Assembly (NCBI GenBank): GCA_946413815.1
Contig: CAMKMD010000001.1
Location: forward strand, 1 to 64,000
Direction of reading: 5' to 3'
Source: an uncultured Ruminococcus sp.
Lineage (GTDB): Bacteria > Bacillota > Clostridia > Oscillospirales > Ruminococcaceae
Length of the DNA stretch: 64,000 nucleotides
Within the stretch, counting starts at the first letter, position 1; each line of letters opens with the position of its first letter. The notes beneath the pieces were generated by a model. That model was not told the origin of the DNA, ran no database searches, and saw only the letters and a list, made by a program, of their open reading frames with translations. A program made the position numbers and the translations under genes. This document shows positions 3,798 through 18,358 of the stretch, in pieces.

Positions 3798-6128
3798 CTA
3801 TCGCCTCTTTGCCTCAAAGTATTGTTTAGTTGCTTCATTATACCGATAAAGCGCCTTTACAGTATTACAGATATCAGTTTTTTCAGTTTTGCCTTCATAA
3901 GCACTTAGAATCATATAAGCATATGACAATGCACACACTTCAATGCTTCCATTTTCACCAAAATCAATGATGAACTTCTTATCAAGATCCTGAGCGCATA
4001 TGTTTTTTATCTCGACATATTGTCTCGAATTTGTTAAACCGTTAACTGTATTCACTGCCTTTCCATTCAGAGTAGCCGTTGCTGTAATTGGATCACCCGA
4101 ATAATACAGTCTTAAAGAATTATCGAATTCAAGGAACAATGACATAGTAAGATCTTGAACTGAGAAGCCCTCACTCTTAACCGCAGAATACTCTTTAAGT
4201 GTATCAGATGTTATATCGTCTAAAGTTATTGGTTCTGCGATTTCAGCCATTGTCTCAGAAATCTTGCTTTCATTGATAAAATACTGTCTTGCCCACGAAC
4301 CATAATTCTGCATAGATTTAGCTAATTCACCGAGCTCGTCACTGCGATTTTTTATATCGTTAATATATTTGTTTACCGAATACTTGAATATTTCATAAGA
4401 TTTGTTTTTTTCTGTATTCCAAATCAATTGGATCTTATCTTGACCATTATAGAATTTAAATGATACTTCTTCGCCCATCTGCGCCGCATTTACCTTGCAT
4501 ACTGCTCGATATGCGCCTTTTTCATCCGGCTCAATTTCCGAAAGAAGCTGCTTAACAGGTGAAGAATCATTCGGGCCTTGAATAAGGAAATACGCCCCTT
4601 CATCAGCCATTGAATCCGGTACAACAAAATACATATTTACACTGATTTCACCATTCAAGGAAAGACTTGCGCCTCTGATAAAACAGCCTTCCAGCCAAAC
4701 TGCTTCAACCGTAATATTATCATCAACAACAATATTATCTCCCGGCTTCTTTTCCTGACCATTCACAGACCAGCATTTAAACAGATTGCCGTCAGGAGCT
4801 GTGAAACTGCATTCGGGGAGTGTGTAGGTTTCGCCTTTATATGCAGCGTAAGACTCCATTGAACCGGCGGCTTCTCCAGCTGAAAATGATACTGTACAAG
4901 GCTCACCAATCCATACCTTTGATCTATTATTTGAATCGTTTCTGATAAATGTACGATAGTTTCCATTACCGTCACACTTAAATACATCAAGTGGAATTGT
5001 TCCGCTTTCTCCTTCTGCGAACTCACAAGGTTTTTGATCATTAACCGCTACATATATTTCTGATTTTGCATCAAGTTCTCCGGTAACATTTATATTGTTG
5101 TAATTATTCAAATACAGATTATCAACTGTATACTCACTTTCTTCATTTGTTTTACCAACAGTATTATCATTTATGATGACTGTTCCTTGCATATTGATAT
5201 TACCATTGTTCCAGATACCACCGCCAGTATGTCCAGTACTAATGTTATTTCCTGTGATTGTATTCACACCCTGCAAAGTAAGAGTTCCTTGATTATTGAT
5301 ACCACCGCCGCCATTAACTGTAACCTTGTTGTTGCTTATAGTTACATTTTCAAGTGTTGCGCTACTGAAGCTGACAACAATACCACCGCCATCAGAACTC
5401 TCATTCTGCATAATTGAGGATCCTTTTATAGTCATTCCAGAATTGGTATCAAGGTAGATACCACCTCCACCATTATAGTATCCTTCTGAAATATTATACT
5501 CAACACAACAATTACTTACGAAAAGCGAAGCTTTGCTATCATAATCTCTACCTTTACAGTATATTGCACCGCCGGACTGGGAAGTCTTGTTATATTCAAT
5601 TGAAATATTCTCAACGGTTAAAACGCCTTCATTAATAATACAGCCACCGTTATCACTTGAATATCCGCCGGTCATCTTACCATTCTTATCCGTACTTGAA
5701 TCAGTAATTGTAAGTGTTCCGCCACTCTCAACTTTGATAACACTGCCATTGCTCACTGCATTATCAGTATTATAAAGTCCCCTGTCAAGCGTATGTCCGT
5801 TCATGTCGATAGTAATAATCTGGTTGCTACTAACTACGAGCATATCTTCAGTGTTTATATCAGCCGTAAGCTTGATTGATGCAGAGGCATTACCAGAAAA
5901 AATACTTTCTAATCGCTCCCATGTACTAACCTCTTCCACTCCATCAGGTGCCGGAGTCTGTCTGCTTTCTCCGGAGGTGTTTTCACCTTCCGAAACAACC
6001 GTACCGTCACCCGTCGCTGCTGCCCTGACCGGGGCTGTGCCTGGGAACATCGTTACCGCTATCATCAGCGATAATGCAATGCCGAACGCCCTTGATGCGG
6101 GTGTCCGTTTACTTTTTTCAATTTTCAT
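3798..6128 (-). CDS. Large secreted beta-helix protein
   Basis: A 776-residue exported protein. Residues 1-37 form a signal peptide ending near APVRAA. A right-handed parallel beta-helix follows (about 90-340), with repeated GG-x-I turns such as GGGIYL, GGGIVV, GGGGINN and GGGIWNN, as in polymorphic outer-membrane/pectate-lyase-like proteins. Next comes a beta-grasp-like module resembling Listeria-Bacteroides repeats (about 405-480, ending ITVEAVWLEG), then a C-terminal region rich in Tyr and Asn ending in ALYRYNEATKQYF, a tail I associate with large Ruminococcus surface proteins. No catalytic residues or sorting signal are visible; adhesion is the likely role. The DNA is clearly more AT-rich than its neighbours, suggesting transfer. 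GGAGGG precedes the ATG. Confidence 0.8.
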   Translation of the reverse strand: MKIEKSKRTPASRAFGIALSLMIAVTMFPGTAPVRAAATGDGTVVSEGENTSGESRQTPAPDGVEEVSTWERLESIFSGNASASIKLTADINTEDMLVVSSNQIITIDMNGHTLDRGLYNTDNAVSNGSVIKVESGGTLTITDSSTDKNGKMTGGYSSDNGGCIINEGVLTVENISIEYNKTSQSGGAIYCKGRDYDSKASLFVSNCCVEYNISEGYYNGGGGIYLDTNSGMTIKGSSIMQNESSDGGGIVVSFSSATLENVTISNNKVTVNGGGGINNQGTLTLQGVNTITGNNISTGHTGGGIWNNGNINMQGTVIINDNTVGKTNEESEYTVDNLYLNNYNNINVTGELDAKSEIYVAVNDQKPCEFAEGESGTIPLDVFKCDGNGNYRTFIRNDSNNRSKVWIGEPCTVSFSAGEAAGSMESYAAYKGETYTLPECSFTAPDGNLFKCWSVNGQEKKPGDNIVVDDNITVEAVWLEGCFIRGASLSLNGEISVNMYFVVPDSMADEGAYFLIQGPNDSSPVKQLLSEIEPDEKGAYRAVCKVNAAQMGEEVSFKFYNGQDKIQLIWNTEKNKSYEIFKYSVNKYINDIKNRSDELGELAKSMQNYGSWARQYFINESKISETMAEIAEPITLDDITSDTLKEYSAVKSEGFSVQDLTMSLFLEFDNSLRLYYSGDPITATATLNGKAVNTVNGLTNSRQYVEIKNICAQDLDKKFIIDFGENGSIEVCALSYAYMILSAYEGKTEKTDICNTVKALYRYNEATKQYFEAKRR

Positions 6129-6545: not shown

Positions 6546-6623
6546 GGGGCGATGTAGGCATCGCCCCCTACATTTTGCTATGGAGGAATCGGCGTTTGTA
6601 GGGGCGGATGCCCACATCCGCCC
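6546..6623. repeat. Paired palindromic (REP-like) units
   Basis: Two imperfectly related palindromes: GGGGCGATG/CATCGCCCC at 6546-6567 and GGGCGGATG/CATCCGCCC at 6602-6623, separated by about 35 bases. The form (GTAGGGGCG...CGCCC) is typical of dispersed extragenic palindromes. No coding frame is convincing in 6405-6694. Confidence 0.6.
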
Positions 6624-6694: not shown

Positions 6695-7840
6695 TTATTC
6701 ATATACAGCTTCTGTCTGCTGTTCATCGGCAGGCTGATACTCTGCCCGGGTCTCCTCCTGAAGTATCTCCTCAGGCTCTGTTTCGGCCTCGGCTTCAGTT
6801 TCCGGCTGCTCCTGAGTATCTTCAGTCGTTTCCTCTTCCGTTGGTTCCTCCGTCTGAGGCTCCGGCGGCTCCTCCTTTTCAAGCTCGAACCAGCTTACGA
6901 TATGTACGCCCTTCAGCTGATCTGTGTCGCCGATGGTATCCGCTCTGTAGGACTCGCTTGCCTTGATCTTCGCTCCGGTCACCATACGCTCCTCCGATAC
7001 TGCGCTGCCGAGAAGACGTATGATAACGCTGCTCAGGTTCTCAGTACTGCAAGGGCTCTCATAGCGTGAGATATCTCCGTCCGGGAAGGACAATGCAACC
7101 TGAGCTGCGTGGGCAGGATCATTGAGCAGCAGCTCACGCCCTGTATATATGACCTGATCCATACCTCCCCTGTCAAGAGTGCCGTCATCGCTGAAATGGA
7201 AATACATCGCCGATACCAGCAGGTCTTTTTCAGCGGAAACAAAGTTCACGCAGTAGAGGTTCTCGGATTTATAATAGGTAACGCTGAAATCCGTCTCCGG
7301 AGAGATATAGGTGCTGAGCGCCTCACGGATAAGGTCATTGCGGTTCTCGTAGACTCTCGGTGCGTTGACGGAATAGTCATGCTCCGGCGCAAAGCCTGTA
7401 TATGCGGTGCTCTTGCTGCTGCGGCTGCCCTCTGTGAGCAGGTCGGCAAGCACTACGGGATTGATACCTATGGCAGCGGAATTGCTGTAGAATACAGATG
7501 TGAGCGGCGAATAGCTGCTCAGTCCCGGCACTGTTTTCTGCGGTAGGAAGCTGGTCTCACAGAAGGCCTGTCTCTCCGTCAGAGCTGCCTTGAGGGCTGC
7601 GTCATACTCCTCTGCCTTTGCCGTGAACTGTGCATCAAGAGCTTCAAGCTGCTCGTCTGTAGTCTCTGTACCGTAGAGCATCTCCGTCAGGGGAAGGTAT
7701 TTCAGCTTCTTTGAGAGAGCTGCACGCTCTCCGTCGCTGACCTCTACAGGAGGATTATCGCTTATGACACCTCCGAGGGCGTCACAGCCGCTGAGCATGA
7801 ATAGTGCAGCAAGTGCGGCTGCTGTAAGCCTTTTCTTCAT
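6695..7840 (-). CDS. Lipoprotein with acidic tail, last gene of the wall operon
   Basis: The start is placed at the ATG at 7840 because GGAG lies eight bases upstream; GTG and ATG codons at 7849 and 7846 are too close to it. The 381-residue product has a lipoprotein signal (KKRLTAAALAALFMLSGC, lipid-modified Cys19) and so is anchored outside the membrane. The body (about 25-320) carries a two-helix start and a mixed alpha/beta region with no recognised motif. The last 60 residues are a Glu/Pro/Thr-rich low-complexity tail. It follows its neighbour by five bases and is the final gene of the ten-gene operon. A sensor or binding role at the wall is possible but unproven. Confidence 0.75.
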   Translation of the reverse strand: MKKRLTAAALAALFMLSGCDALGGVISDNPPVEVSDGERAALSKKLKYLPLTEMLYGTETTDEQLEALDAQFTAKAEEYDAALKAALTERQAFCETSFLPQKTVPGLSSYSPLTSVFYSNSAAIGINPVVLADLLTEGSRSSKSTAYTGFAPEHDYSVNAPRVYENRNDLIREALSTYISPETDFSVTYYKSENLYCVNFVSAEKDLLVSAMYFHFSDDGTLDRGGMDQVIYTGRELLLNDPAHAAQVALSFPDGDISRYESPCSTENLSSVIIRLLGSAVSEERMVTGAKIKASESYRADTIGDTDQLKGVHIVSWFELEKEEPPEPQTEEPTEEETTEDTQEQPETEAEAETEPEEILQEETRAEYQPADEQQTEAVYE

Positions 7841-7845
7841 TGTCA

Positions 7846-9093
7846 TCACTCCTTACTGATAAGCGCTGTTATCTTCTTCAATGCCTTCTTCTGGAGAAGC
7901 GGCGGGAGACAGAGCTCCGTTACGTGGTCTGTCATGGTCTTGGCCAGCTGTCTGTCGCCGTAAAGCTCGATGCAGTCCTTCATGGAAAGCTCGCCGTAGA
8001 GGTAGAGCACTGCCGGCACGATGCCGCTGACGTTGGCGGAATCCGGCGATACAAGGCCGATAATGGACATGGAGTTCTCGTCACGGCCGAGGACTGCAAG
8101 CAGAAGCGGCGTCGGCACCTCCATATCGACTGCATCACAGTAGATGCGGTAGAGGTCCTCCGGTGTGGCATCATCGAGAGGCATACCAAGGGCGATATTG
8201 TTCCTTACTGCCATACGGAAGCGTGCGGGATAGGAGTCTATCGGCTTCTGATAGAGCTCATACATATTCTGCTCCGGCTTCATGCCGCCGGAGAAATGCT
8301 CGCGGGAGATATCCACCCACATATCACGCCATGCCTCGGCAGGATAATTGCGTATCATCCCGAATACCTCGAGGGGGTCTGTGATGGAGGGGCGTATCAT
8401 ATCTATGAAGTTCTTCACCAGGCCGAAGCTGATGTCCGGTGAGCCGCTGAAAAAGCGTATGAAGGAATTCTGCCATTCGATGCGGAAGGGTGCTCCGTTG
8501 AGATAGGCGAAGAACTGGAGCATATGCTCCGGCACATAGCCGGAATTGTCGCGGCAGAGCCTGTCTACGAGCCTCTCCTCGTTGTCGCCGAACTGGGGGA
8601 GATACATTATCCAATGAGTTATGTCTGCCGGTACCTTTTCCTCCGGCGGAAGGTCGTGTTTGAGCAGGTCGGCAGTCATCATGCCCGGGAAATCCTCCTC
8701 GCTGAGCTGGAGACGGCGGGCATAGCGTGAGGGAAGTCTGCGGCAGGCATAGGTCATAGCCGGAAGGAGCTTGTCCTCCGGTACTGTGAAGCTTCCGCTG
8801 TTGTGAAGAAGGGCAAGTATCAGCTTTCTGCCGTACTCCTCGTCCTGTCTGGTGGAATACTCCTCAACGGTGCAGACGAAATTCTCTCTCTCGTCCACCT
8901 TCTTGCCGTGGGATTTGAATATCTCAAGCACCTTGTGGTCCTCGGTGCAGACAAAGTATGCACTGCGTCTCTCCTCGAGCCTCTGTAGCAGCGGTACGAG
9001 CGCCTGATAGCGGTTATCTGCGGGAGTCCTTCCGTCGTCCCTGAGCCATGACCAGCCGGCGTCTCTTGAAGGTCTTGTGTAGATCAGCTTCAT
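7846..9093 (-). CDS. Unrecognised protein coupled to the GTPase-like gene
   Basis: A 415-residue soluble protein without signal peptide or membrane segment. It starts MKLIYTRPSRDAGWSWL and has a mixed alpha/beta first 100 residues, then a long helical region with short tryptophan- and proline-rich motifs (THWIMYLPQFGDNEERL, SYPARFRM). I do not recognise a family. The ATG shares one base with the stop of the GTPase-like gene (TAATG), with GGAGGT upstream, so the two are made together and may form a complex. By analogy with GTPase-centred bacterial systems in which a large partner (GAP1-type) accompanies a TRAFAC GTPase, this could be a GTPase partner; I saw no diagnostic GAP1 motif, so this is a guess to be tested by profile search. 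Confidence 0.7.
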   Translation of the reverse strand: MKLIYTRPSRDAGWSWLRDDGRTPADNRYQALVPLLQRLEERRSAYFVCTEDHKVLEIFKSHGKKVDERENFVCTVEEYSTRQDEEYGRKLILALLHNSGSFTVPEDKLLPAMTYACRRLPSRYARRLQLSEEDFPGMMTADLLKHDLPPEEKVPADITHWIMYLPQFGDNEERLVDRLCRDNSGYVPEHMLQFFAYLNGAPFRIEWQNSFIRFFSGSPDISFGLVKNFIDMIRPSITDPLEVFGMIRNYPAEAWRDMWVDISREHFSGGMKPEQNMYELYQKPIDSYPARFRMAVRNNIALGMPLDDATPEDLYRIYCDAVDMEVPTPLLLAVLGRDENSMSIIGLVSPDSANVSGIVPAVLYLYGELSMKDCIELYGDRQLAKTMTDHVTELCLPPLLQKKALKKITALISKE

Positions 9094-10547
9094 TACCTTA
9101 TACCTCCATAGACTTTGATGGTCTCGATGAGATCTTCAATATACATAGGCGCATACCTGTTTTTGAGCCTGCTGTCTGATACATCGGTGCCGAAGGGCGC
9201 TACACAGGCATATTTCACGGTATAATCGGATATCTCGTTGCAGCATACCCTGAGTGAGCGGAGGTAGTGTACGGAGTCGATATCCGCTGCTTCATCTGCT
9301 GCGGGTTCTTCTCCGGCTGTACCGGCTTCTTCTGCGCTCTCCGGTACGGGTGCAGCTTCGGGCTCCGGTGCGGGAGTTTCTTCCCCTACAGGGATATCTA
9401 TGTCGATATCGAAACCGGGTTCCTCAGTGCCGTCGATGAATTCTTCTATATACTCTACGGCGGAGGGCTTCTGTGGCTCCTTTTCGTAGAACTTGCCTGT
9501 CATGAAGTATGAGTCATCCGCTGACATCAGGTGCTTTCGGAGATTGATGAGGTTCTCGTAGTCAAGACCCTTCTTCTTCCAGTTATCCTTCCAGCCCTGA
9601 TAATCGGTTATCATGCTGGCGGCGGCGTGGTCGGGATAGCGGTCACACTTCGAGAAGCAGAGTATTATCTTGGTGGGCTTGGTCTTTCCGGCAAGCTTTA
9701 CTTTGAGTTCCTCAAGATAGCTCTCAAGACGGGTAAGGGATATGCGGCTCTTGTCATCGCTGTCAACTATGACTATGAGCATATCCGACTCGACTGCCGG
9801 ACGGAAGTCTCTTACCTCGCCCACGATGTCCTTTCTCTCAGGGTCCTTGCCGAGAATTTCTCCGGCGGTATCAGTGATGTGGATATCGGTTATCTCACGT
9901 TTGCTGTTGCGGAATTTTATTGTAAGACAGGGCGTCTTTGAGCCGTGTGTGGCTCCGGGTGCCATGCGCTTTGCAAGCATAGCCTCAAGGCCCTTGTAAT
10001 AGCTGTTGAAAAAGGGCTCTGCCATATTTATGGTATTACCCTTTTCCTTGAAGCGGTAGTAGAGGGATATGGCAAGAGCCGTCTTGCTTCCGCCTACGTT
10101 GGATATAAGGGAGATGTTTACGCTCTTTCCCCTTGCGTCGGGGCCGTTCTCGTCGGCGTACTCGTTGGGGAGTATCAGGTGGCAGTTCCCGCAGGCAACT
10201 GTCATAAGCGGTGTGGGGCGTCCGCCCTTGCTCCTGATGTCGGCTACATAGCCGCCTATTGAAACGTGGTCACGTACATTCGAGGATGATACAGGCTGCA
10301 CGCTCACCTTGTCGCGGATGATATCGGGGATGACGTTCTGGCTGAAGAGCACACGGAGACAGTCATCATCTGAAGCGTCTATGCCGTACTTCTTCAGCGT
10401 GCCGTCCTCTCCGGAAAGCACAGGGTCGATGAGGTATTCCTTCTTGGCCGCAAGCTCGTCCTCGTTGAACATGAGAAGAAGGTCATCACGGGTCAGGGCA
10501 AAGCGAAGCCCCTCCTTGTCGTCATTGCAGTATGGACAGTATTTCAT
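9093..10547 (-). CDS. Zinc-ribbon GTPase-like protein
   Basis: A 484-residue soluble protein. Residues 4-7 (CPYC) and 119-122 (CGNC) make a split zinc ribbon. A P-loop NTPase domain follows: the P-loop-like sequence SNVGGSKT (149-156) departs from GxxxxGK[ST] at both glycines but keeps Lys155-Thr156; the switch II motif is DTAG (226-229), a hydrophobic strand MLIVIVDSDD follows, and SKCD (299-302) sits where [NT]KxD is expected. A Glu/Pro/Ala-rich linker (about 385-430) precedes a short C-terminal domain. This fits divergent TRAFAC-type GTPases seen in conflict-related or membrane-associated operons. Start is set by GAGGAGGGGAAGGAA upstream. Nucleotide specificity is unproven. Confidence 0.75.
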   Translation of the reverse strand: MKYCPYCNDDKEGLRFALTRDDLLLMFNEDELAAKKEYLIDPVLSGEDGTLKKYGIDASDDDCLRVLFSQNVIPDIIRDKVSVQPVSSSNVRDHVSIGGYVADIRSKGGRPTPLMTVACGNCHLILPNEYADENGPDARGKSVNISLISNVGGSKTALAISLYYRFKEKGNTINMAEPFFNSYYKGLEAMLAKRMAPGATHGSKTPCLTIKFRNSKREITDIHITDTAGEILGKDPERKDIVGEVRDFRPAVESDMLIVIVDSDDKSRISLTRLESYLEELKVKLAGKTKPTKIILCFSKCDRYPDHAAASMITDYQGWKDNWKKKGLDYENLINLRKHLMSADDSYFMTGKFYEKEPQKPSAVEYIEEFIDGTEEPGFDIDIDIPVGEETPAPEPEAAPVPESAEEAGTAGEEPAADEAADIDSVHYLRSLRVCCNEISDYTVKYACVAPFGTDVSDSRLKNRYAPMYIEDLIETIKVYGGIR

Positions 10548-10560
10548 TTCCTTCCCCTCC

Positions 10561-11709
10561 TCAGTATGCTATCTCGATGTGATAATCCTGACCGAACATC
10601 GTTACGTCACGGACATACTTATCACGGTATGCCTCGTTTTCCTCGTAATATACAAGGTCCACGGACTGCACTGCCGCTGTGTTGTCGGCACTTATGGCAC
10701 GCTCTCCGCAGGCAAGCTGGAAGACCTCGTTCTCCTCGCTGTACTGGAGCCTGAGGTTCTTCGGGAACCTGAGGTCGGTGCGGAGCCTTCCGCTGCCGTC
10801 AGATGCTGCAAATATGGCGTTCTTTCTGTTGAACTGCATGAACTGGCGTATCTTATCGTTCTGGAACTCCTTGCTGTCGGTCTCGGGAACGGTGCTGGCC
10901 ATATAGTAGCGTACATTTCTGCCGTTCTCGTATATATCGGTATATACGATGATGGAGGCACGCCTGAGGAAGGCTTCGATGCCTGTGGGCTCCGGCTCCG
11001 GAATGACGGGCTCGGGTACAGGCGGTGCTGAGGAGACTGCCGCACGCTCTGCTATAGCTTCACGGCGGAGCTTCATAGTTTTAGCGCCTCTTGAACCTGT
11101 GGAGCTGCTGCCGGAAGCGACTGTCTCCGGAGCCTTGGGTGCTGCTGCGGGAGCTGCCGGTACCGGAGCAACAGGCTGGGGCGGTACATAGCCGCCCGGC
11201 TGGGCGTAAGGGCTCTGGGGAGCATAGCCGGGATAGACCTGCTGCTGAGGAGCATAGGGTGATGCGGGCGGCACCTGATAGGGCTGCTGCGGCTGTGGAG
11301 GTACGGCAGGGCGGACCTGTGTATTCTGCGCGTTGGTATTCTTTGCGGCAGGCTTGCGCTTTCCGGCGGCTGCACTTATCCAGTCAGCGATAAGAGTGAT
11401 CAAGAGGTATATCACCATAGCCACTCCGAAGAAGAGACAGAGATAGAGAAGGTCTCTGCCGAGGGCTGTCCTGAAAGCATTGTGCAGTGCGGGATACCTT
11501 GTATCGGTGCTGTTGGTCACTGTTAAAAGTGCCGCCGTTCTGTCCCTGTCAAAGAAGGCAGGTATCATATCCTTTGGTGTATAGTTTGCTGTGATATAGC
11601 CTGTCGAAAGGCCTGCATGGAGCGCTGCCCCGGTAAGAGAGATCAGAGCTACGATGATCATAAGCAGTATAGTCCTGAATGTTCCGGTGTGTTTTTTGTT
11701 CTTCGCCAT
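10561..11709 (-). CDS. Membrane protein with Pro/Gln-rich cytoplasmic linker
   Basis: A 382-residue protein with a transmembrane segment at about 12-35, a short external loop, and a second at about 90-110 (LLYLCLFFGVAMVIYLLITL), so the large C-terminal part should be cytoplasmic. Residues about 130-205 are a low-complexity Pro/Gln/Ala/Tyr linker (repeats of PQQP, YAPQ, PYAQPGGY). The last 130 residues are a folded domain (EAFLRRASIIVYTDIYENG onward) of unknown family. Its ATG overlaps the preceding stop by one base (TGATG), and it lies 13 bases before the GTPase-like gene. The layout suggests a membrane platform linking the external wall enzymes to the cytoplasmic GTPase-like pair; that is inference. 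Confidence 0.7.
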   Translation of the reverse strand: MAKNKKHTGTFRTILLMIIVALISLTGAALHAGLSTGYITANYTPKDMIPAFFDRDRTAALLTVTNSTDTRYPALHNAFRTALGRDLLYLCLFFGVAMVIYLLITLIADWISAAAGKRKPAAKNTNAQNTQVRPAVPPQPQQPYQVPPASPYAPQQQVYPGYAPQSPYAQPGGYVPPQPVAPVPAAPAAAPKAPETVASGSSSTGSRGAKTMKLRREAIAERAAVSSAPPVPEPVIPEPEPTGIEAFLRRASIIVYTDIYENGRNVRYYMASTVPETDSKEFQNDKIRQFMQFNRKNAIFAASDGSGRLRTDLRFPKNLRLQYSEENEVFQLACGERAISADNTAAVQSVDLVYYEENEAYRDKYVRDVTMFGQDYHIEIAY

Positions 11710-12953
11710 CAGTTGACCTCCTCAGAATGTTCTATAAAATAGGCTATGCAGGGAGTGAGCAGATTGATCCTTGCATCCTCCTGACTGTAGAGCACGAATG
11801 ATTTGCTCCTGCCGTCGGGCATCGTTATCACACCTGCTGTATACTTCACTCCGTCTCCGGTGTTCTTTACTACGCGCATATCCGGTGTTACGCCCTGTAC
11901 AGGCGTAAAGAAGCCCCTTGCACGCTCGCAGAGCTCCTGCGGCAGCTCCTCCGGTGTGTTCACTGGAAGAGAAACGGCTTCTCCGGCGCTGTCGGTAACG
12001 GATGAAGTGAGAACGGGAAGTGAATGCTTTCCCGACCATATACGCTGTACTGTGCTGCAAAGGTGGAGCGGACTGATATAGCCCTCTGACACGGGCTTTG
12101 CAAGAGCCTCTGCCTTTGGCAGCGGCTTTCCGTCATCAGCTGCCGGCTCGGAGAGAACTCCGAAATCCGTCATGAATCCGTAGGAGGATATCATCTCCCC
12201 CTTCTCGTCATCGAAGGAAGTCATATAGCTGCTGCGGCAGTCAAAGGCCGACGCCGCTTCCTCCGCCGATATACCGAGCTTGTCGAATACGGCGGCTGAA
12301 ATGTTGGCTTCAAGCTGTGTGCAGCCGCTCACCTCACGGTCTATGCCTGTGGTGCTGGTGGCACACATGGTCTGTATCTCGCCTGTGGCAGTATCCTGTA
12401 TTATGCAGCCCCCGAGTATACCGTTATACTTCAGGAGCATATATATGCTCTCCTCAAGCTGCGGACGAAGGGTGAGAGTGACGTTGCAGCCCTCTCCTGT
12501 GCCCTTGTCATAGCGGAGATATCCCTCAAGGCCGCCTGCATTGACATCGCCGTAGAGATAACGGCAGAGCATTGCACGGCTCCTTGCGGAGGACGCTGAG
12601 CTGACCTCGTTCACGGCTATGGTGCTGTCATAGCAGAGACCGCCCGCATAGTCATAGATTCCGCTGCGGTGCGGGAAATAGCTGTAGCCCTTTCCCGTGA
12701 GTTTAGCGGCGTAGTGCTCACTGCGCAGATTGCTCCTTGCAAGGCTCATGGCTGCAAGGGCTTCGGAAACTGCGCTGTCACCGGAGAGGGATTCAGTCTC
12801 GCTGACTGTGAAGAGCGGAGGCTTCGGGAAAAAGCTGTAGTATGCAGTGAAGCAGAAAACGGCAGCTCCGACAGCTATGGCTGCTGCGGCTGTCGGGGCA
12901 GAGCGTACACGCTTCTTAGCCTCTGACAGATCCGGCTTCTTCAGCTGTTTCAT
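11709..12953 (-). CDS. PBP-like protein without catalytic motifs
   Basis: A 414-residue single-pass protein: cytoplasmic start, membrane helix at about 22-41, then an external domain. Residues 159-196 (TLTLRPQLEES onward to DTATGEIQTM) match the start of the transpeptidase fold of class B penicillin-binding proteins (TLD..LQ....., ...D..TGEI.AM). Downstream I find no SxxK, SxN or KTG at the expected spacing, so it should not acylate. A strong GGAGG places the ATG at 12953, so the gene overlaps the SEDS gene by 38 bases. A structural or regulatory partner of the SEDS protein or of the active PBP two genes upstream is the likely role. It could also be a much-diverged active enzyme with unusual motifs. 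Confidence 0.7.
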   Translation of the reverse strand: MKQLKKPDLSEAKKRVRSAPTAAAAIAVGAAVFCFTAYYSFFPKPPLFTVSETESLSGDSAVSEALAAMSLARSNLRSEHYAAKLTGKGYSYFPHRSGIYDYAGGLCYDSTIAVNEVSSASSARSRAMLCRYLYGDVNAGGLEGYLRYDKGTGEGCNVTLTLRPQLEESIYMLLKYNGILGGCIIQDTATGEIQTMCATSTTGIDREVSGCTQLEANISAAVFDKLGISAEEAASAFDCRSSYMTSFDDEKGEMISSYGFMTDFGVLSEPAADDGKPLPKAEALAKPVSEGYISPLHLCSTVQRIWSGKHSLPVLTSSVTDSAGEAVSLPVNTPEELPQELCERARGFFTPVQGVTPDMRVVKNTGDGVKYTAGVITMPDGRSKSFVLYSQEDARINLLTPCIAYFIEHSEEVN

Positions 12954-14328
12954 AGACTGCCTCCTTTCTGCGGCTCAGTGAAAGAGCGATAAGGCATATA
13001 TATATCACTGAGTATACAAGGTTCGTTATACCGTCACTGACGAAGGGAAGGCCTACGCCGGTGAAGAAGAATGCTGCAACATTTGCCATGCAGTGTATAG
13101 CACAGGAGGCAAGGAGCATGACTGCTCCGTAGAAGCCTGCCCGGGCGGTGAAATCCTTTTCCTTCACGCTGCTGAGTCTTACTGCCGGTATCAGCGTGAG
13201 GGCAAGATAGGCGGCAAGTATGATGACTGCCGCAAGCTTTCCGAGGACTGTGAGCATATTCAGGAAGCTGAAATCCTCACAGCGTGTGGCGAGCTCGCCG
13301 CCGATATAAACATCGTAGCGGTTGGGGTTGGGCCAGATATATGTCCTTTCGCCCAGCTCCTCACGTACAAGGTTGACCTGGTCGAAAGCTGTGATATCAA
13401 AGAGTCTCTGATATATGTGGCTGTTCTCCGGGAAGAACATATAGATGAATACTCCTCCGGCAGCAACGATCGCTGCCGAGAGCGCTGCAAGCCTGTAGCG
13501 GCCTGTGAGAAGAAGACTCGTCAGGTAGAAGAACAGAAGTATCATCACCGTTCCGAATTCTCCGGTCAGCGCAAGGAAAGCCATAGTCGGTACGCATACT
13601 GCAAATACCGCATTCCTGCTGATGAAGCTGCCGGCGTTCTTTCCCTTTCCGGCAGGTACGGTCTCAAGTGCTGCTATGGAGATGACTGCAAGGAACTTTG
13701 CAGTCTCGATGAGCCTGAGCTGCATACCGAAGCTGTGTCTGAATACCGCAGCTGCAAGGATCAGCATGATGTCCGCTGTAATCAGTAGAAGCATACCGGT
13801 GCTGAACCAGTACCATCTCGGATCTTTCGCCTTAGATGCTCTTACACGGCGCAGGACAGCTTTAAGGGGACGGAAGGATTCTGCCTTTGCCCGGAGCTCC
13901 GGCACTGCTGTGAAGGTCAGCACTGCGCACAGGAATGCACAGCCGAGGACGAGCAGTACCAGCTTCTTTATCTCGTTCGGCGTAAGTGTACGTATATAAA
14001 GCTGGAAGAATATGCCCAGTTCTCCCATTGCGGTAAAGAATGCGATGACTGCAAGGGCAAGGCTGTCGCCGGTAAGACCGGTGCCGAAGCTGAGTGCTGC
14101 GGCCTTGACAGCTATGCCTATGATAAGGAACAGTATGAATACCGCTGCATAGAGCGGTGACGAGAGCAATGAATTGCGTGCGAAATATATTACCGCGGTC
14201 ACAAGAAGGATGACCTCCGGCGCAAAAAAGTACATAAGGTACTTGAACTGCTTTACAGCCCACAGTATATCGGAGCGGAGATTTCTCGCACCTGATACTG
14301 CGGTGTTCACTATTTCTTTTTCTGCCAT
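12916..14328 (-). CDS. SEDS-family (FtsW/RodA-like) membrane protein
   Basis: A 470-residue polytopic protein with about ten hydrophobic segments. Family marks are LTGEFGTVMILLFFYL (like the FtsW LxxDxG...), a large external loop holding YQRLFD and ending CEDFSFLNMLTVLGK (compare tDFIFAvigEELG), and the last-helix motif GVGLPFVSDGITN (compare TGLPLPFLSyGGSS). SEDS proteins polymerise lipid II into glycan strands together with a class B PBP. Here the loop is diverged and the conserved Gly-Gly-Ser at the end is altered, so it is probably a specialised paralogue rather than the housekeeping FtsW or RodA. It sits four bases after the LCP-like gene. Confidence 0.8.
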   Translation of the reverse strand: MAEKEIVNTAVSGARNLRSDILWAVKQFKYLMYFFAPEVILLVTAVIYFARNSLLSSPLYAAVFILFLIIGIAVKAAALSFGTGLTGDSLALAVIAFFTAMGELGIFFQLYIRTLTPNEIKKLVLLVLGCAFLCAVLTFTAVPELRAKAESFRPLKAVLRRVRASKAKDPRWYWFSTGMLLLITADIMLILAAAVFRHSFGMQLRLIETAKFLAVISIAALETVPAGKGKNAGSFISRNAVFAVCVPTMAFLALTGEFGTVMILLFFYLTSLLLTGRYRLAALSAAIVAAGGVFIYMFFPENSHIYQRLFDITAFDQVNLVREELGERTYIWPNPNRYDVYIGGELATRCEDFSFLNMLTVLGKLAAVIILAAYLALTLIPAVRLSSVKEKDFTARAGFYGAVMLLASCAIHCMANVAAFFFTGVGLPFVSDGITNLVYSVIYICLIALSLSRRKEAVYETAEEAGSVRG

Positions 14329-14332
14329 CGGA

Positions 14333-15613
14333 TCACCCCTTCATATCATAGCAGATTATGCGTATCACAGCCTGCCTCAGCTGTGCGGGATAGGTGTATA
14401 GCGTGCGTGTGCCGTCAGCGGAGTAGAGCTCCTGACAGTTCACGGGAAGGCGGATGCTTCCGGTATTCCTGTAGGAATCACGGTAATCACGCCAGTATGA
14501 AGCTGTATCGAAGCCAAGCTTCAGGAGGTCTCCGGCGGAAAGGCTCGTTGCCGCTCCGTCTGCGGCTTCATTGAAACGAGAGGTCGAAAGGAGCAGCTTT
14601 GAAAGACTGCGGCGGGTAGCTATCGCATTTATTACCCTGTCCTCACGCTCGGTGCGTATGTAATCGCTGTCCGGCTTTGCACCGGTGGATGTGACCACGG
14701 TAAGGCTGTAGGCCTGCTTTCCATCGCAGCGCACCTTCCCAGTCTCCTCTTTTCCGGAGAAAAGACGTGCGGTGTCAAGGAGTGTGCAGTCCTCACCGTA
14801 TCTTTCTGTGAGGATGCTGTTCACCTGCTCCGCCTCTGCCGCTGACATCTCCACGGTAACACCGCCGAGACTGTCTATTACCTTGACGAAGGACTTGTCA
14901 TCGAGTATCAGAGTCTCGTCCACCTTTATGGAAAAGGCATCCTCGACTGCGGAGGGCAGCTCCTGTGCGGGTACCTCCGCAAGACGGCAGAACCTGCCGC
15001 CATAAGAGACCTGTGTATCGCCTAAAAGTGTGAGCAGTCTGACAGACTTGCTGCGCCTGTTGAATACTGCTGTCTTTATCATATCGGGAGCACCGTCCTC
15101 ACCTGTCACGGCAATGAGGATGCTCGTTATATCCTTGTCCTCTATCACATCAGCGGACGCGGAATGCTGTACCTCTGAAGTGAGCGCACGTCTGAGAAGA
15201 GCACTCACCTTCGTCATACGGAATATGCCGAAGCCCACAGAAGCTGCAACAAGGAACGCAGCTGTCATGAGTATCACGAAGCGGCGGTACGGCATACGGT
15301 TTGTCATTGTAGTACCCACGACACGCAGCTTGGGAGTGCCCTCGCCGTAGCGGTAGCCTATCAGCCAGCGGAGATCCTCATCGGTGTCACCGTAGCTTAT
15401 CTGTACCACACCGTTGTCGCCTTTAAGAAGCATACCCGTCTTTCCGCCTATATCGAACATGGTCTGGCCGGAGTCAGAGAGTACGGGAGTAACTTCCGAA
15501 TCGCCGAGCTTCATGTGGATGTGAAGCCCCTTGCGGTATCTGATACCCCTTGCCCACAGCAGGGTGCCGAGTATCAGAAGGATTATCAGTGCAAAGAATA
15601 ATGTCCAGATCAT
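14333..15613 (-). CDS. LCP-like membrane protein lacking key arginines
   Basis: A 426-residue protein with a membrane helix at the very N-terminus, a first cytoplasmic-looking domain (about 25-105), a second helix (RRFVILMTAAFLVAASVGF, about 110-128), and an external LytR-CpsA-Psr-like domain (about 160-420). The match is in the layout ITSILIAVTG, ...VFNRRSKSVRLLTLLGDTQV and FVKVIDSLGGVTVEM, which are the LCP core strands. The residues usually written R-S-D-T and R-D-T, which bind the pyrophosphate lipid, are replaced here (GAPDM and GDT), so transfer of wall polymers by the usual mechanism is doubtful. It overlaps the PBP stop as ATGA, with GGAGGT upstream. Confidence 0.7.
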   Translation of the reverse strand: MIWTLFFALIILLILGTLLWARGIRYRKGLHIHMKLGDSEVTPVLSDSGQTMFDIGGKTGMLLKGDNGVVQISYGDTDEDLRWLIGYRYGEGTPKLRVVGTTMTNRMPYRRFVILMTAAFLVAASVGFGIFRMTKVSALLRRALTSEVQHSASADVIEDKDITSILIAVTGEDGAPDMIKTAVFNRRSKSVRLLTLLGDTQVSYGGRFCRLAEVPAQELPSAVEDAFSIKVDETLILDDKSFVKVIDSLGGVTVEMSAAEAEQVNSILTERYGEDCTLLDTARLFSGKEETGKVRCDGKQAYSLTVVTSTGAKPDSDYIRTEREDRVINAIATRRSLSKLLLSTSRFNEAADGAATSLSAGDLLKLGFDTASYWRDYRDSYRNTGSIRLPVNCQELYSADGTRTLYTYPAQLRQAVIRIICYDMKG

Positions 15614-17106
15614 GCCGCACCTCCTGATCCCGCAGCTATGGCTGCTATCTCACGGTAAAGCGGAACGAAGCTTGACGCATAGATTGAGTACTGGGTATTG
15701 CCGTTCTCGTCTGTGAAGTATTCAGCGAAATCTGCTCCGTTGTGGACGAATAGGGTTATCACCTTCAGAGGTGTGGTGCCCTGTGCGATGAAGCCGGTTA
15801 TGGTAAGGCACTCGAGAGGCTTTTCCACGCCGTCTTCCACGTACCATGTACTTGCAGAGCCTGTCTTTATGTAGAAATCATAGCCATCTGCGGGTGAGCA
15901 GCTGGAGTAAATGGCATCCTCATACATGAGCGACCACATACCGTCCCTCACTGTATCGGAAAGAGGTTCTGTACCCGGTACGGTCTGCACATCGGTCGCC
16001 GTGTTTATGCGGGGGGAGTGCATCTGTCCGCTTGCTATGGCTCCGGTAACCGCATTCATGTACATCAGGGAAACTCTCTCGTCTATGCCGTCGGAGTTGC
16101 ACATACCTATAGCGAAGAAGGCTGTCTGACGGTCACGGACATTCTTAGTATCATCGCTGTCGCCTTCCTGTACCTTCAGCTGGCTGATATCAGGCTGTAC
16201 TATCTTCTGCCAGTCGGTGCCGAGGATATAGCCCTTCAGCGGGCTGCCGTCGGAATTGAAGCCGAAATACTTGTTGTATACCGGCGCAAAGGTATCATAG
16301 CCCATAGTCCTCAGGGCATTGATGAAGTAGGTGTTGCTCGAGAAGGCAAAGGCGCCGAAGCTGCTGTACACACCGTCATACTGCGTACCGAAGAGATTCC
16401 GGTCAACGTTGTAGCCGTATCCCCTGCCGTCGATATCCCAGTTGCTGAAATCCCGGTCGTAGATATGCAGGGCTCCGGGATCGGAGTAGTACTGCTCGGC
16501 TCCTGATTCAAGCATGGCTGATGAAACGAGTATCTTTGCCGTACTTCCTATGAGCTGCGGAGTCGAGAAGAAGTCATTCTGTTTCAGGAGCGTTTTTTCG
16601 TCCTCCTCCGGAGTGGGCTCCTTCATATGCGGAGCGCTGTTGACTATGGCATCAACTGTGCCGTCCGGTTCAGAGACTATGACACAGCCGTCTATGCCGT
16701 GTCCCTCATTGCGGGTATAGCCGGTGAGCTTGCTGAGTATACTCGTACCCATATCGGTATCGAGCGTAAGGTCATAGGTTATGCCGGGACCTGCTACAGC
16801 GCTCTCTGTGATACTGTCAACGAGCTGCGGAAAGCTGTTCCCGAGCTCCGTGCGCTCCCACTTGCCGCTTGTGAGCTGTGCGAGGGGTGAGCCGTTCTTT
16901 GCGCTTATGACGGTATCATAGAGCGGGTCCTCGGGAAGAGGAGGCTCCGGCTCGGGGTTATGCTCCTCGGTGAAGAAGCTGATATCCACAGTACCGTCGA
17001 TCTGATGCGGCAGCGGCGAGGCCGAACGGACGGTATTTCCGCAGCCGCAGCTGCCTGTCAGGGCGGTGAGCGCCGTCAGGGCTGCAATCGTTCTTTTTAT
17101 GGTCAT
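15610..17106 (-). CDS. Class B-like penicillin-binding transpeptidase, lipoprotein
   Basis: The start is the ATG at 17106 (AAGGAGAACGAA upstream). The 498-residue protein has an N-terminal export signal with LTGSC, so it may be lipid-anchored at Cys20 instead of held by a helix. The transpeptidase domain keeps all three motifs at proper spacing: SxxK as STAK (188-191), SxN as SSN (256-258) and KTG (414-416). The preamble TYDLTLDTDM resembles the PBP TLD strand. It would cross-link peptidoglycan, or another peptide, outside the membrane. A lipoprotein PBP with only about 110 residues before the catalytic domain is short for class B. It lies 19 bases after the dockerin gene and overlaps the LCP-like gene. 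Confidence 0.8.
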   Translation of the reverse strand: MTIKRTIAALTALTALTGSCGCGNTVRSASPLPHQIDGTVDISFFTEEHNPEPEPPLPEDPLYDTVISAKNGSPLAQLTSGKWERTELGNSFPQLVDSITESAVAGPGITYDLTLDTDMGTSILSKLTGYTRNEGHGIDGCVIVSEPDGTVDAIVNSAPHMKEPTPEEDEKTLLKQNDFFSTPQLIGSTAKILVSSAMLESGAEQYYSDPGALHIYDRDFSNWDIDGRGYGYNVDRNLFGTQYDGVYSSFGAFAFSSNTYFINALRTMGYDTFAPVYNKYFGFNSDGSPLKGYILGTDWQKIVQPDISQLKVQEGDSDDTKNVRDRQTAFFAIGMCNSDGIDERVSLMYMNAVTGAIASGQMHSPRINTATDVQTVPGTEPLSDTVRDGMWSLMYEDAIYSSCSPADGYDFYIKTGSASTWYVEDGVEKPLECLTITGFIAQGTTPLKVITLFVHNGADFAEYFTDENGNTQYSIYASSFVPLYREIAAIAAGSGGAA

Positions 17107-17125
17107 TTCGTTCTCCTTGATGAAC

Positions 17126-17536
17126 TCAGCCTGTATACCTGCCGGCATAGTCACGGAGAGATACGATACCGTGATCTATGGTGCTGTCGGCGAGGTAGGC
17201 CGTGAGCAGTGCCGAATCGGAGGTATCAATGATGCCGTCGGCGTTTATATCTGCTGTCTGGAGCTGCTCCTCTGCTGTGAGAGTGGTCTCGCCCCTGAGG
17301 TAGATGTTCTGTAATGCAAGTACATCTGCGGCGTCAAGTACGCCGTCCTTGTTGAGGTCGCCGAGTATCAGCGAATTATCCCCCGGTGCCGGCTGAGACT
17401 GTGCAGGCTGTTCTGTCAGGGACTGCGCCGGGAAAAGCGGTGCAGCTGCCGGACGTGACCATATAAACATCATGGCCATAACTCCGGCAAAGAACCAGAG
17501 TATCCTGAGGATACCGTTCTTACGTGCTCTATCCAA
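17126..17536 (-). CDS. Membrane-anchored dockerin protein
   Basis: The start is a TTG at 17536, nine bases after GGAGGG; the ORF runs through the stop of the preceding lipoprotein gene with an 8-base overlap. The 136-residue product has a basic start, one membrane helix (ILRILWFFAGVMAMMFIW, about 10-27), a Pro/Gln/Ala linker, and a type I-like dockerin (about 55-120) with two Ca-loop repeats, DLNKDGVLDAAD and DINADGIIDTSD. Dockerins normally bring secreted enzymes onto cohesin scaffolds. A dockerin tethered by a transmembrane helix inside a wall-synthesis operon is unusual; it could dock a cohesin-bearing protein at sites of wall growth, or the EF-hand pair may serve another protein contact. 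Confidence 0.8.
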   Translation of the reverse strand: MDRARKNGILRILWFFAGVMAMMFIWSRPAAAPLFPAQSLTEQPAQSQPAPGDNSLILGDLNKDGVLDAADVLALQNIYLRGETTLTAEEQLQTADINADGIIDTSDSALLTAYLADSTIDHGIVSLRDYAGRYTG

Positions 17537-18278
17537 GGTATATGCCCTCCTTTTCCATGTCTTCACGGGTGGTAACAAAGCTGAGCGCTGTCTTCATCAT
17601 GCCCTCGGTGTTCTCCTCTGCGGATTCAACGGCAAAGGTGAAGCAGTAGCGGGAAGTGAGCTTCTTCACACGCTCGCCTGTTTCCTTGTCGGTCTCGTAA
17701 ACATAGCTGCCGTCTGAGTCACGCTCGTATTCGTCGTCCTCCACGGGCTTGTCGATTATCCATATCATCATATTCTTCTTCATAGTGCCGCTGTCATTTA
17801 TCAGGCTGATGCAGTGCGCCCTGTAATCATACTTCCCGACAGTGACATTTTCCTCGGTCTTCATATTCTCCGGGGAGTACCTTCCGGAGAGAGAATGCTT
17901 CATCTCCTGATAGACCTCGTCATAGGTATAGCCGTTCCAGCTCTCGGCGGTGATGATATTCACGCCGGAGGGGTCGGAATACTGGACAAGGTAGCTGTTC
18001 TCGTCCTCGAAGGTGCGGCTGAATCCCACGGGCACATCAAAGCAGCAGTTTATCCTGCCGACTATGCTGCGGCTCGAAGGGTAGTAGCTTTTCGGGTACT
18101 GCGGCGGAGCAGACGGATCGTCTATGGAAAGATAGCCCGCCGTGAAGTCGATAACGGGTGAAGCATCCGGTGCGGCGGTCTCCGCTGCCGGCGTACCGGA
18201 GGTCTGCTTACCGCTGCATCCTGTGAAGGCTGCGGTACAGACTATCAGTGCCGCTAAAGCGGCAAAGGTTCTTTTCAA
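17529..18278 (-). CDS. Lipoprotein, first gene of the wall operon
   Basis: It starts at TTG 18278 with GGGGG eight bases upstream; 249 residues. The signal RTFAALAALIVCTAAFTGC gives a lipidated Cys21, followed by a Thr/Ala/Pro-rich tether (about 22-45). The body resembles PsbP/MOG1-type beta-rich lipoproteins: a bulky core with INCCFDVPVGFSRTF, SGVNIITAESWNGY and a terminal helix (TEGMMKTALSFVTTR). These folds often scaffold surface complexes. No catalytic motif was seen. It is promoter-proximal and overlaps the dockerin gene, so it should be the most abundant product. The family call is tentative. Confidence 0.7.
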   Translation of the reverse strand: MKRTFAALAALIVCTAAFTGCSGKQTSGTPAAETAAPDASPVIDFTAGYLSIDDPSAPPQYPKSYYPSSRSIVGRINCCFDVPVGFSRTFEDENSYLVQYSDPSGVNIITAESWNGYTYDEVYQEMKHSLSGRYSPENMKTEENVTVGKYDYRAHCISLINDSGTMKKNMMIWIIDKPVEDDEYERDSDGSYVYETDKETGERVKKLTSRYCFTFAVESAEENTEGMMKTALSFVTTREDMEKEGIYLG

Positions 18279-18329: not shown

Positions 18330-18358
18330 ATTCTACCATAAAATCCCTTATTTTTCAA
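18330..18358 (-). promoter_or_regulatory. Promoter of the ten-gene wall operon
   Basis: TTGAAA (18358-18353), 17 bp, TAGAAT (18335-18330) on the minus strand, about 50 bases before the first start. A GAGCG/CGCTC inverted repeat (18309-18323) lies at about +6 to +20 and may be an operator or a leader hairpin. The 18361-18595 gap is otherwise featureless apart from a repeated GGTTAC pair. Confidence 0.75.

Follow-up and report, generated by a model that had tools for sequence, protein, structure and literature searches.

The first 64,000 nucleotides of contig CAMKMD010000001.1 (assembly GCA_946413815.1) from an uncultured Ruminococcus sp., hereafter called the window, carry on the minus strand a run of ten genes that is firmly established as a conserved unit. 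Judged from sequence and predicted structures, the unit combines a SEDS protein with its catalytic aspartate, a catalytically empty penicillin-binding protein (PBP) anchored by a transmembrane (TM) segment, a lipoprotein with the only complete transpeptidase site, a DO-GTPase-like GTPase, and a TM dockerin. We suggest, with confidence somewhat short of even, that in some ruminococci with cohesins it encodes an extra, dedicated SEDS glycan synthase, which would be controlled by a cytoplasmic GTPase switch and connected to the surface system of cohesins and dockerins.

The ten open reading frames (ORFs) lie head to tail between 18278 and 6695, overlapping or only a few bases apart, and their coordinates all match the run of overlapping or near-touching genes described in an earlier note on this DNA. 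The features of the region, in order of transcription, are as follows.

18330..18358, minus strand: promoter-like site (TTGAAA-17-TAGAAT, with TG ahead of the second hexamer)
17529..18278, minus strand: gene 1 (LP1), lipoprotein of 249 residues, no known family; lipobox found by pattern, Cys21 invariant in 11/11 aligned copies
17126..17578, minus strand: gene 2 (DOC), N-terminal TM segment and type I dockerin (Pfam Dockerin_1, 1.9e-11)
15610..17154, minus strand: gene 3 (PBP), lipoprotein DD-transpeptidase with STAK, SxN and KTG (Pfam Transpeptidase, 7.6e-12)
14333..15613, minus strand: gene 4 (LCP-like), two TM segments (TM scan) and a degenerate LCP domain (Pfam LCP, 2.3e-9)
12916..14328, minus strand: gene 5 (SEDS), multi-TM glycosyltransferase-like protein (TIGR02614 at 4e-5, chain alignments, hhalign)
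11709..12953, minus strand: gene 6 (PBL), TM-anchored class B PBP pseudoenzyme (TM scan, predicted fold)
10561..11709, minus strand: gene 7 (PRO), two TM segments and a Pro-rich linker (TM scan)
9093..10547, minus strand: gene 8, P-loop GTPase related to DO-GTPases, with CxxC pairs C4/C7 and C119/C122 (profile searches, alignment)
7846..9093, minus strand: gene 9 (U415), alpha/beta N-terminal domain and helical domain (predicted fold, TM scan)
6695..7849, minus strand: gene 10 (LIP), lipoprotein of 384 residues, no known family (profile and TM scans)
6546..6567, minus strand: terminator-like hairpin of 9 pairs, directly 3' of gene 10, closing the operon

By eye, gene 2 is likely to start at the TTG at 17536, and gene 3 at the ATG at 17106 rather than at the GTG at 17154. 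The promoter that the earlier note placed at 18330-18358 is present as a promoter-like sequence, but a pattern match alone is no proof; the region holds 16 promoter-like sites versus 8.5 expected and 15 terminator-like sites versus 8.8 expected, and such matches by themselves prove little. Nevertheless, because the promoter-like site and the hairpin flank the run, and a separate promoter-like site (12/12 consensus, 6404-6376, minus strand) lies downstream of the hairpin, the operon has a single plausible start and a single plausible end.

A scan with the alignment of gene 6 (by pattern and tblastn, one genome per species, 84,980 species) recovered 12 loci (L027-L038), which were annotated with profiles and checked for ORFs hidden under longer antisense frames. 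The whole unit is found in 9 of these 12; the other three (L030, L032, L034) stop at contig ends, with their remaining genes in order. As far as the contigs reach, nine of the ten gene families occur in the same order in all 12 loci, and the gene arrangement is therefore not due to chance. The loci are all from metagenome-assembled genomes (MAGs) titled Ruminococcus or Oscillospiraceae, and for the six with a named source this was rumen (4), omasum (1) or horse faeces (1). Across the nine families, identity to the window is 84-96% in L027, 38-51% in L028, and 15-37% in L029 and L031. The nine families show a single distance pattern over nine loci (correlations 0.95-0.99), as expected of a unit inherited together, although clade structure alone also raises such correlations.

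To say that the same genes are present holds for these nine families, whereas at position 7 the match is one of place and topology. In clade A (window, L027, L028, L029, L037) the position is occupied by a single two-TM protein, and in clade B (L030-L036, L038) by a two-TM protein that is followed up, in contigs long enough to show it, by an additional soluble protein. Homology of gene 7 was not supported either for the proteins of L029 and L037, which agree only in position and two-TM topology (hhalign 10.6%), or for the two-TM and soluble proteins of clade B (0.1-9.2%); the two-TM protein at the gene 7 place in the other loci is matched by position.

The ten-gene unit is rare and patchy. GTPase searches found it in 3 of 125 genomes of the genus, with one more carrying a cousin operon (L054, discussed below). 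A sample of 396 genomes of the family gave 12 matches, of which 5 are the unit (G000, G019, G028, G188, G1048) and 7 are weaker, and among 361 genomes of the class the only strong match was in the window's own genome, with 3 weak ones. Since the 12 loci were fetched by gene 6, wall genes are expected there, and the GTPase searches provide the unbiased count of linkage. Strong GTPase matches occur in seven genomes (the five above, G876, which by its coordinates is L027, and G654), and SEDS and PBP-type genes adjoin the GTPase in 7/7. The two halves of the operon, which the earlier note had joined in one system, are thus linked. Counted over all loci, the GTPase is found at all 13 places where the contig extends to it, each with a SEDS gene (window, L027-L029, L031-L038 with L032 partial, and L054). 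At the 7 weaker loci of the family, none of the SEDS, PBP, pseudo-PBP and LCP profiles gave a match at 0.01.

Profile scans of the ten proteins (Pfam, NCBIfam) gave clear matches for the transpeptidase, LCP and type I dockerin assignments; SEDS was matched by TIGR02614 only, the GTPase was weak and under the cut-off, and genes 1, 6, 7, 9 and 10 had no convincing family. Gene 5 is unmatched by the Pfam SEDS family PF01098, including in a genome-wide search that finds three other SEDS proteins. Its multi-TM fold and the C-terminal TGVxLPFxSxG signature are present, and its profile aligns with two ordinary SEDS proteins (hhalign 96%) and with solved chains of FtsW and RodA (E 0.004-0.012). Asp352 aligns with the catalytic Asp262 of E. 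coli RodA and is invariant in 13/13 aligned copies; L035 was left out of the alignment for an in-frame stop but nonetheless has the catalytic Asp. On these grounds the SEDS identity proposed earlier for gene 5 holds.

The two PBP-type proteins appear to have divided the features of a class B PBP between them. In gene 3 the SxxK, SxN and KTG motifs and the lipobox Cys are invariant (11/11 aligned, the cut L034 copy omitted), the lipobox (G37-C38) following a short hydrophobic N terminus. It is an active-looking PBP by its STAK, SSN and KTG motifs, as had been claimed, but not a class B PBP with an N-terminal membrane helix, having a lipobox Cys instead. Gene 6 has the TM anchor and a predicted PBP fold, in a model with a mean pLDDT of only 62.5 and low stretches. 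Its best motif columns are poorly kept (SxxK in 5/13 at column 447, SxN in 8/13 at column 122, K[ST]G in 9/13 at column 275) and their order is unlike that of a PBP; judged by these motifs, gene 6 is therefore not an active PBP. This bears out its description as PBP-like without catalytic motifs, and the predicted fold agrees.

Gene 4 probably has a cytoplasmic domain between its two TM segments. The LCP family is marked by the Arg of an Arg-Asp pair and the arginines of a YxRxR motif, and only 2 of 12 members of the gene 4 family match the Pfam LCP model at E up to 0.1 (alignment without the cut L032 copy). In the window copy Gly-Asp replaces Arg-Asp, at a position that by eye is not conserved among relatives. 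The earlier view of an LCP protein without its arginines is right for the Arg-Asp and YxRxR residues, but a later D..R stretch is kept in the window copy (by eye). The lipoproteins encoded by genes 1 and 10 gave no family or solved structure above chance-level matches in Pfam, NCBIfam and structure comparison.

Gene 8 matches MMR_HSR1 (0.0014) and DO-GTPase2 (0.0027; score 17.8 versus a cut-off of 27) under the Pfam cut-offs. Two CxxC pairs, forming a putative zinc ribbon, and a DTxGE motif with Glu in Walker B are present in 11/11 members (the cut L032 copy omitted). A zinc-ribbon GTPase-like protein, as first described, is thus consistent with the CxxC pairs, the P-loop and DO-GTPase kinship, with profile matches that stay under the cut-off. 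Gene 9, directly downstream, possibly has a longin-like fold, as in longin/roadblock GTPase platforms, over residues 1-81 in its model. Foldseek gave no match at 0.001 or better, and coverage in the VIA list falls mostly on residues 205-284. A TM segment towards the C terminus is found in 8/11 aligned copies, the window copy being without one. The C-terminal domain of gene 7 is probably cytoplasmic.

Gene 2 encodes a short protein with a TM segment in 11/11 copies reached, and the Pfam match, run on the window copy only, covers the two calcium-loop repeats of a type I dockerin; the earlier note's membrane-anchored dockerin is confirmed. By eye, the first repeat looks degenerate in clade B. Cohesin domains were detected in 12/12 carrier genomes tested (of 13 carriers, the genome of L032 being left out); among 197 genomes sampled from the family, 64 have them. 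Cohesins are present in each of the four carriers found by GTPase search in this sample (P 0.010), and the four all belong to the group of 15 genomes that have six or more cohesin matches (P 2.2e-5, with a six-match cut-off set after the counts were seen); these values ignore the kinship of the carriers and so overstate independence, and MAGs are incomplete, which weakens the case. The association supports a cohesin/dockerin tie but does not prove it.

L054, from a single genome of the same genus (G654), is a 7.6 kb contig ending at the SEDS gene. Like the ten-gene unit it has SEDS, a PBP, a two-TM protein, a GTPase with split CxxC pairs, a soluble partner (487 residues, no TM segment) and a two-TM LCP in one run. 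It differs in that its TM-anchored PBP has complete motifs (SAFK, SSN, KTG; Pfam 5.3e-18), its LCP keeps Arg-Asp (Pfam 4.9e-18), and its partner is not detectably related to gene 9. Its SEDS protein matches PF01098 (1.4e-11); by hhalign the GTPase reaches 98.2% to the gene 8 family and SEDS 95.3%. The 270-residue and 487-residue proteins were rejected as homologues of genes 7 and 9 (0.2-0.4%), and no dockerin or lipoprotein profile matched on the 7.6 kb contig. The most economical reading starts from a core of GTPase, SEDS, PBP and LCP; in the ten-gene unit, the PBP beside SEDS and the LCP would have degenerated into scaffolds, and a lipoprotein transpeptidase would have joined them.

Taken as a whole, the make-up of the unit speaks for a specialised SEDS synthase in which the PBP roles are divided, a GTPase acts as switch and a dockerin serves as hook for cohesins. 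The gating by GTP, the division of labour between the PBPs and the dockerin hook are what we infer from it. The dead PBP of gene 6 would hold and activate SEDS, as the structural half of a class B PBP, and the lipoprotein transpeptidase of gene 3 would cross-link, as its catalytic half. The GTPase and gene 9 may reach the membrane via gene 7, and in most copies also through the segment at the tail of gene 9; they would switch on or place the synthase. The extracellular dockerin might hold on to a cohesin in a scaffoldin or a surface protein, directing wall synthesis, or the fixing of a surface scaffold, to the site of the cohesin complex, and the two lipoproteins might act as outer sensors or clamps. 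This full version, in which a GTPase-governed SEDS synthase with class B PBP jobs split between a dead anchored PBP and a lipoprotein transpeptidase is hooked by a dockerin to the cellulosome, coupling synthesis and attachment at one site, is tentative and on the doubtful side.

Several observations weigh against these proposals. The function proposed for the operon is read from sequence and predicted fold. Pro257 of RodA, five residues before the Asp, is described as essential in the literature consulted, which included PMC10449877 and PMC11237479; by eye it has no counterpart in 12 aligned copies of gene 5, so SEDS activity is not assured. The SEDS frame of L035 (L035:8527-9873) has an in-frame stop near its end, before the last conserved signature. 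The window GTPase has SKT rather than GKT in its P-loop, and GTP binding is putative. Homologues of gene 7 are detectable only in L027 and L028 (phmmer 1.6e-225 and 8.2e-23). The grip of the gene 2 dockerin on a host cohesin is likewise conjectural. The carriers G666, G667 and G668 have one cohesin match each and G670 two, and 11 of the 15 cohesin-rich sample genomes are without the operon. L054 is a single locus at a contig end. Its PBP is closer to gene 3 (hhalign 98.8%) than to gene 6 (68.3%) and its LCP, at 95.3% to clade A and 27.6% to all members, reaches 0.1% with clade B; the idea that the dead copies descend from something like L054 hence rests mainly on position and topology.

The missing Pro257 equivalent, together with the large distance of gene 5 from solved RodA and FtsW, also suits an alternative in which SEDS acts on a lipid-linked glycan other than peptidoglycan, such as a surface or secreted polysaccharide, with the PBP-like and LCP-like proteins and the lipoproteins as export or attachment parts. 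LCP-family proteins join glycans onto peptidoglycan, which fits such a role. However, the complete DD-transpeptidase motif set in 11/11 aligned copies of gene 3 points to a peptidoglycan stem-peptide substrate, and Pfam and NCBIfam recognise no other glycosyltransferase or transporter in the unit; we consider this alternative unlikely.

The earlier note proposed a specialised, GTP-gated wall-synthesis or surface-assembly complex, perhaps a scaffold-anchoring or conflict system. A complex and scaffold anchoring fit the anatomy and the cohesin association; the conflict part fares less well. It would have the GTPase and gene 9 sense an invader, phage or rival, and drive the SEDS, PBP and LCP-like wall proteins as effectors. 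The GTPase is indeed nearest to DO-GTPases (10/11 members match DO-GTPase2 with E values of 0.1 or lower, down to 1.4e-6), one of the weaker loci of the family, L078, has a relative that exceeds the cut-off of this profile beside an HSP70 gene fused to a VWA domain, and the spread is patchy, as the 3/125 genus genomes show. The accessible text of Kaur et al. 2020 (PMC7159879) predicts DO-GTPase conflict systems that are often membrane-near, some with peptidoglycan-binding domains, and includes the HSP70/VWA neighbour type. On the other hand, PADLOC models of known anti-phage defence systems match 0/10 proteins, and gene 6 has no match in plasmid records. No GAP1-N2 signal was found in gene 9, whose profile against eight GAP1-N2 proteins gave 0.1% in hhalign, with six other unit families at 0.1-0.2% (GAP1-N1 was not compared). 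The nine families and their order are fixed across copies, unlike variable effectors, and in two species of the genus (L027, L028) the operon lies near the same HAD gene. A comparison of empty sites via this neighbour, present in 12/12 genomes, gave no clean empty site, the order around it differing in the 8 fetched. A conflict system is accordingly quite improbable. No likelier is a signalling complex without synthase, in which degenerate SEDS, PBP and LCP domains sense wall precursors and report to the GTPase: two of four wall-type proteins lack catalytic motifs, and two lipoproteins and a partner with a TM segment in 8/11 would suit it, but the SEDS Asp and all transpeptidase motifs are conserved without exception, and Pfam and NCBIfam recognise neither a transcription factor nor an output gene among the ten.

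Relatives of single components occur elsewhere. In L073 and L076, GTPases related to gene 8 have HSP70-like genes as neighbours (identified by eye). At L071:913-1971, one of the weaker loci of the family, a DO-GTPase2-like GTPase that falls just short of the cut-off shares a run with MBOAT and DHHW genes, which may be another surface-glycan context for GTPases of this group. The GTP-bdg_N/MMR_HSR1 protein (Pfam) at a further weaker locus, L072, we take to be HflX-like. In Clostridia, GAP1-N2 proteins in L040, L041 and L044-L046 have an ABC transporter-like upstream neighbour (by eye), not a DO-GTPase. Weak matches of the pseudo-PBP profile (genus 7/9, order 1/3) were considered as further units and rejected as ordinary PBPs. 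Six of them have the look of lipoproteins, another belongs to the L054 operon, and the one in L018 forms a pair with SEDS. The six (L048-L053, e.g., L048:2099-3559 and L049:4728-6182) are gene 3-related transpeptidases standing alone in six other genomes of the genus; dockerin-profile proteins excepted, no neighbour matches the unit at 0.001 or below, and in L048 and L049 a dockerin-profile protein directly follows the transpeptidase. Upstream of the clade B operons L030, L031, L033 and L035 are a 228-residue gene (ECF S-component-like in L031) and a gene for a large secreted protein (DUF4430 in L031), divergent from the operon in L031, L033 and L035. In the window, the 12/12 site beyond the hairpin precedes a 776-residue protein (3798-6128) with a weak pectate-lyase-like adhesive match under the cut-off.

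SEDS-PBP pairs are core bacterial wall-growth machines. Among the matches listed from the open-access literature we found no GTPase of this kind tied to such a pair and no characterised operon matching this one, subscription literature being largely outside the search; the earlier note likewise knew of none. Like RodA-PBP2 and FtsW-FtsI, the operon has a SEDS gene with the catalytic Asp beside a TM-anchored PBP-fold protein. Unlike them, it has an anchored PBP that is catalytically dead, to judge from its motifs, and a distinct lipoprotein as transpeptidase, and the run also includes genes for a GTPase, a dockerin, an LCP-like protein and lipoproteins. If the proposed synthase is real, it would be a natural split of the activating and cross-linking roles of class B PBPs and would give a DO-GTPase-like protein a part in wall synthesis. 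With the DO-GTPase/GAP1 systems, as far as the available text of PMC7159879 goes, the operon shares a CxxC-pair GTPase with Glu after DxxG, a partner gene directly downstream (with a TM segment in most copies here), and a likely membrane location. It differs in having no detectable GAP1-N2 and in its neighbours, which are wall enzymes instead of FNIII, tubulin, HSP70 or kinase components. According to the accessible parts of PMC2930009 and PMC5301203, the cohesin protein ScaE, which is joined to peptidoglycan by sortase, holds the cellulosome of R. flavefaciens. Both arrangements place cohesin-dockerin parts at the ruminococcal cell surface, but here it is the dockerin that is anchored, on a TM segment and within a wall-synthesis operon, which, if the proposed synthase is real, might physically link wall growth with cellulosome display in gut ruminococci.

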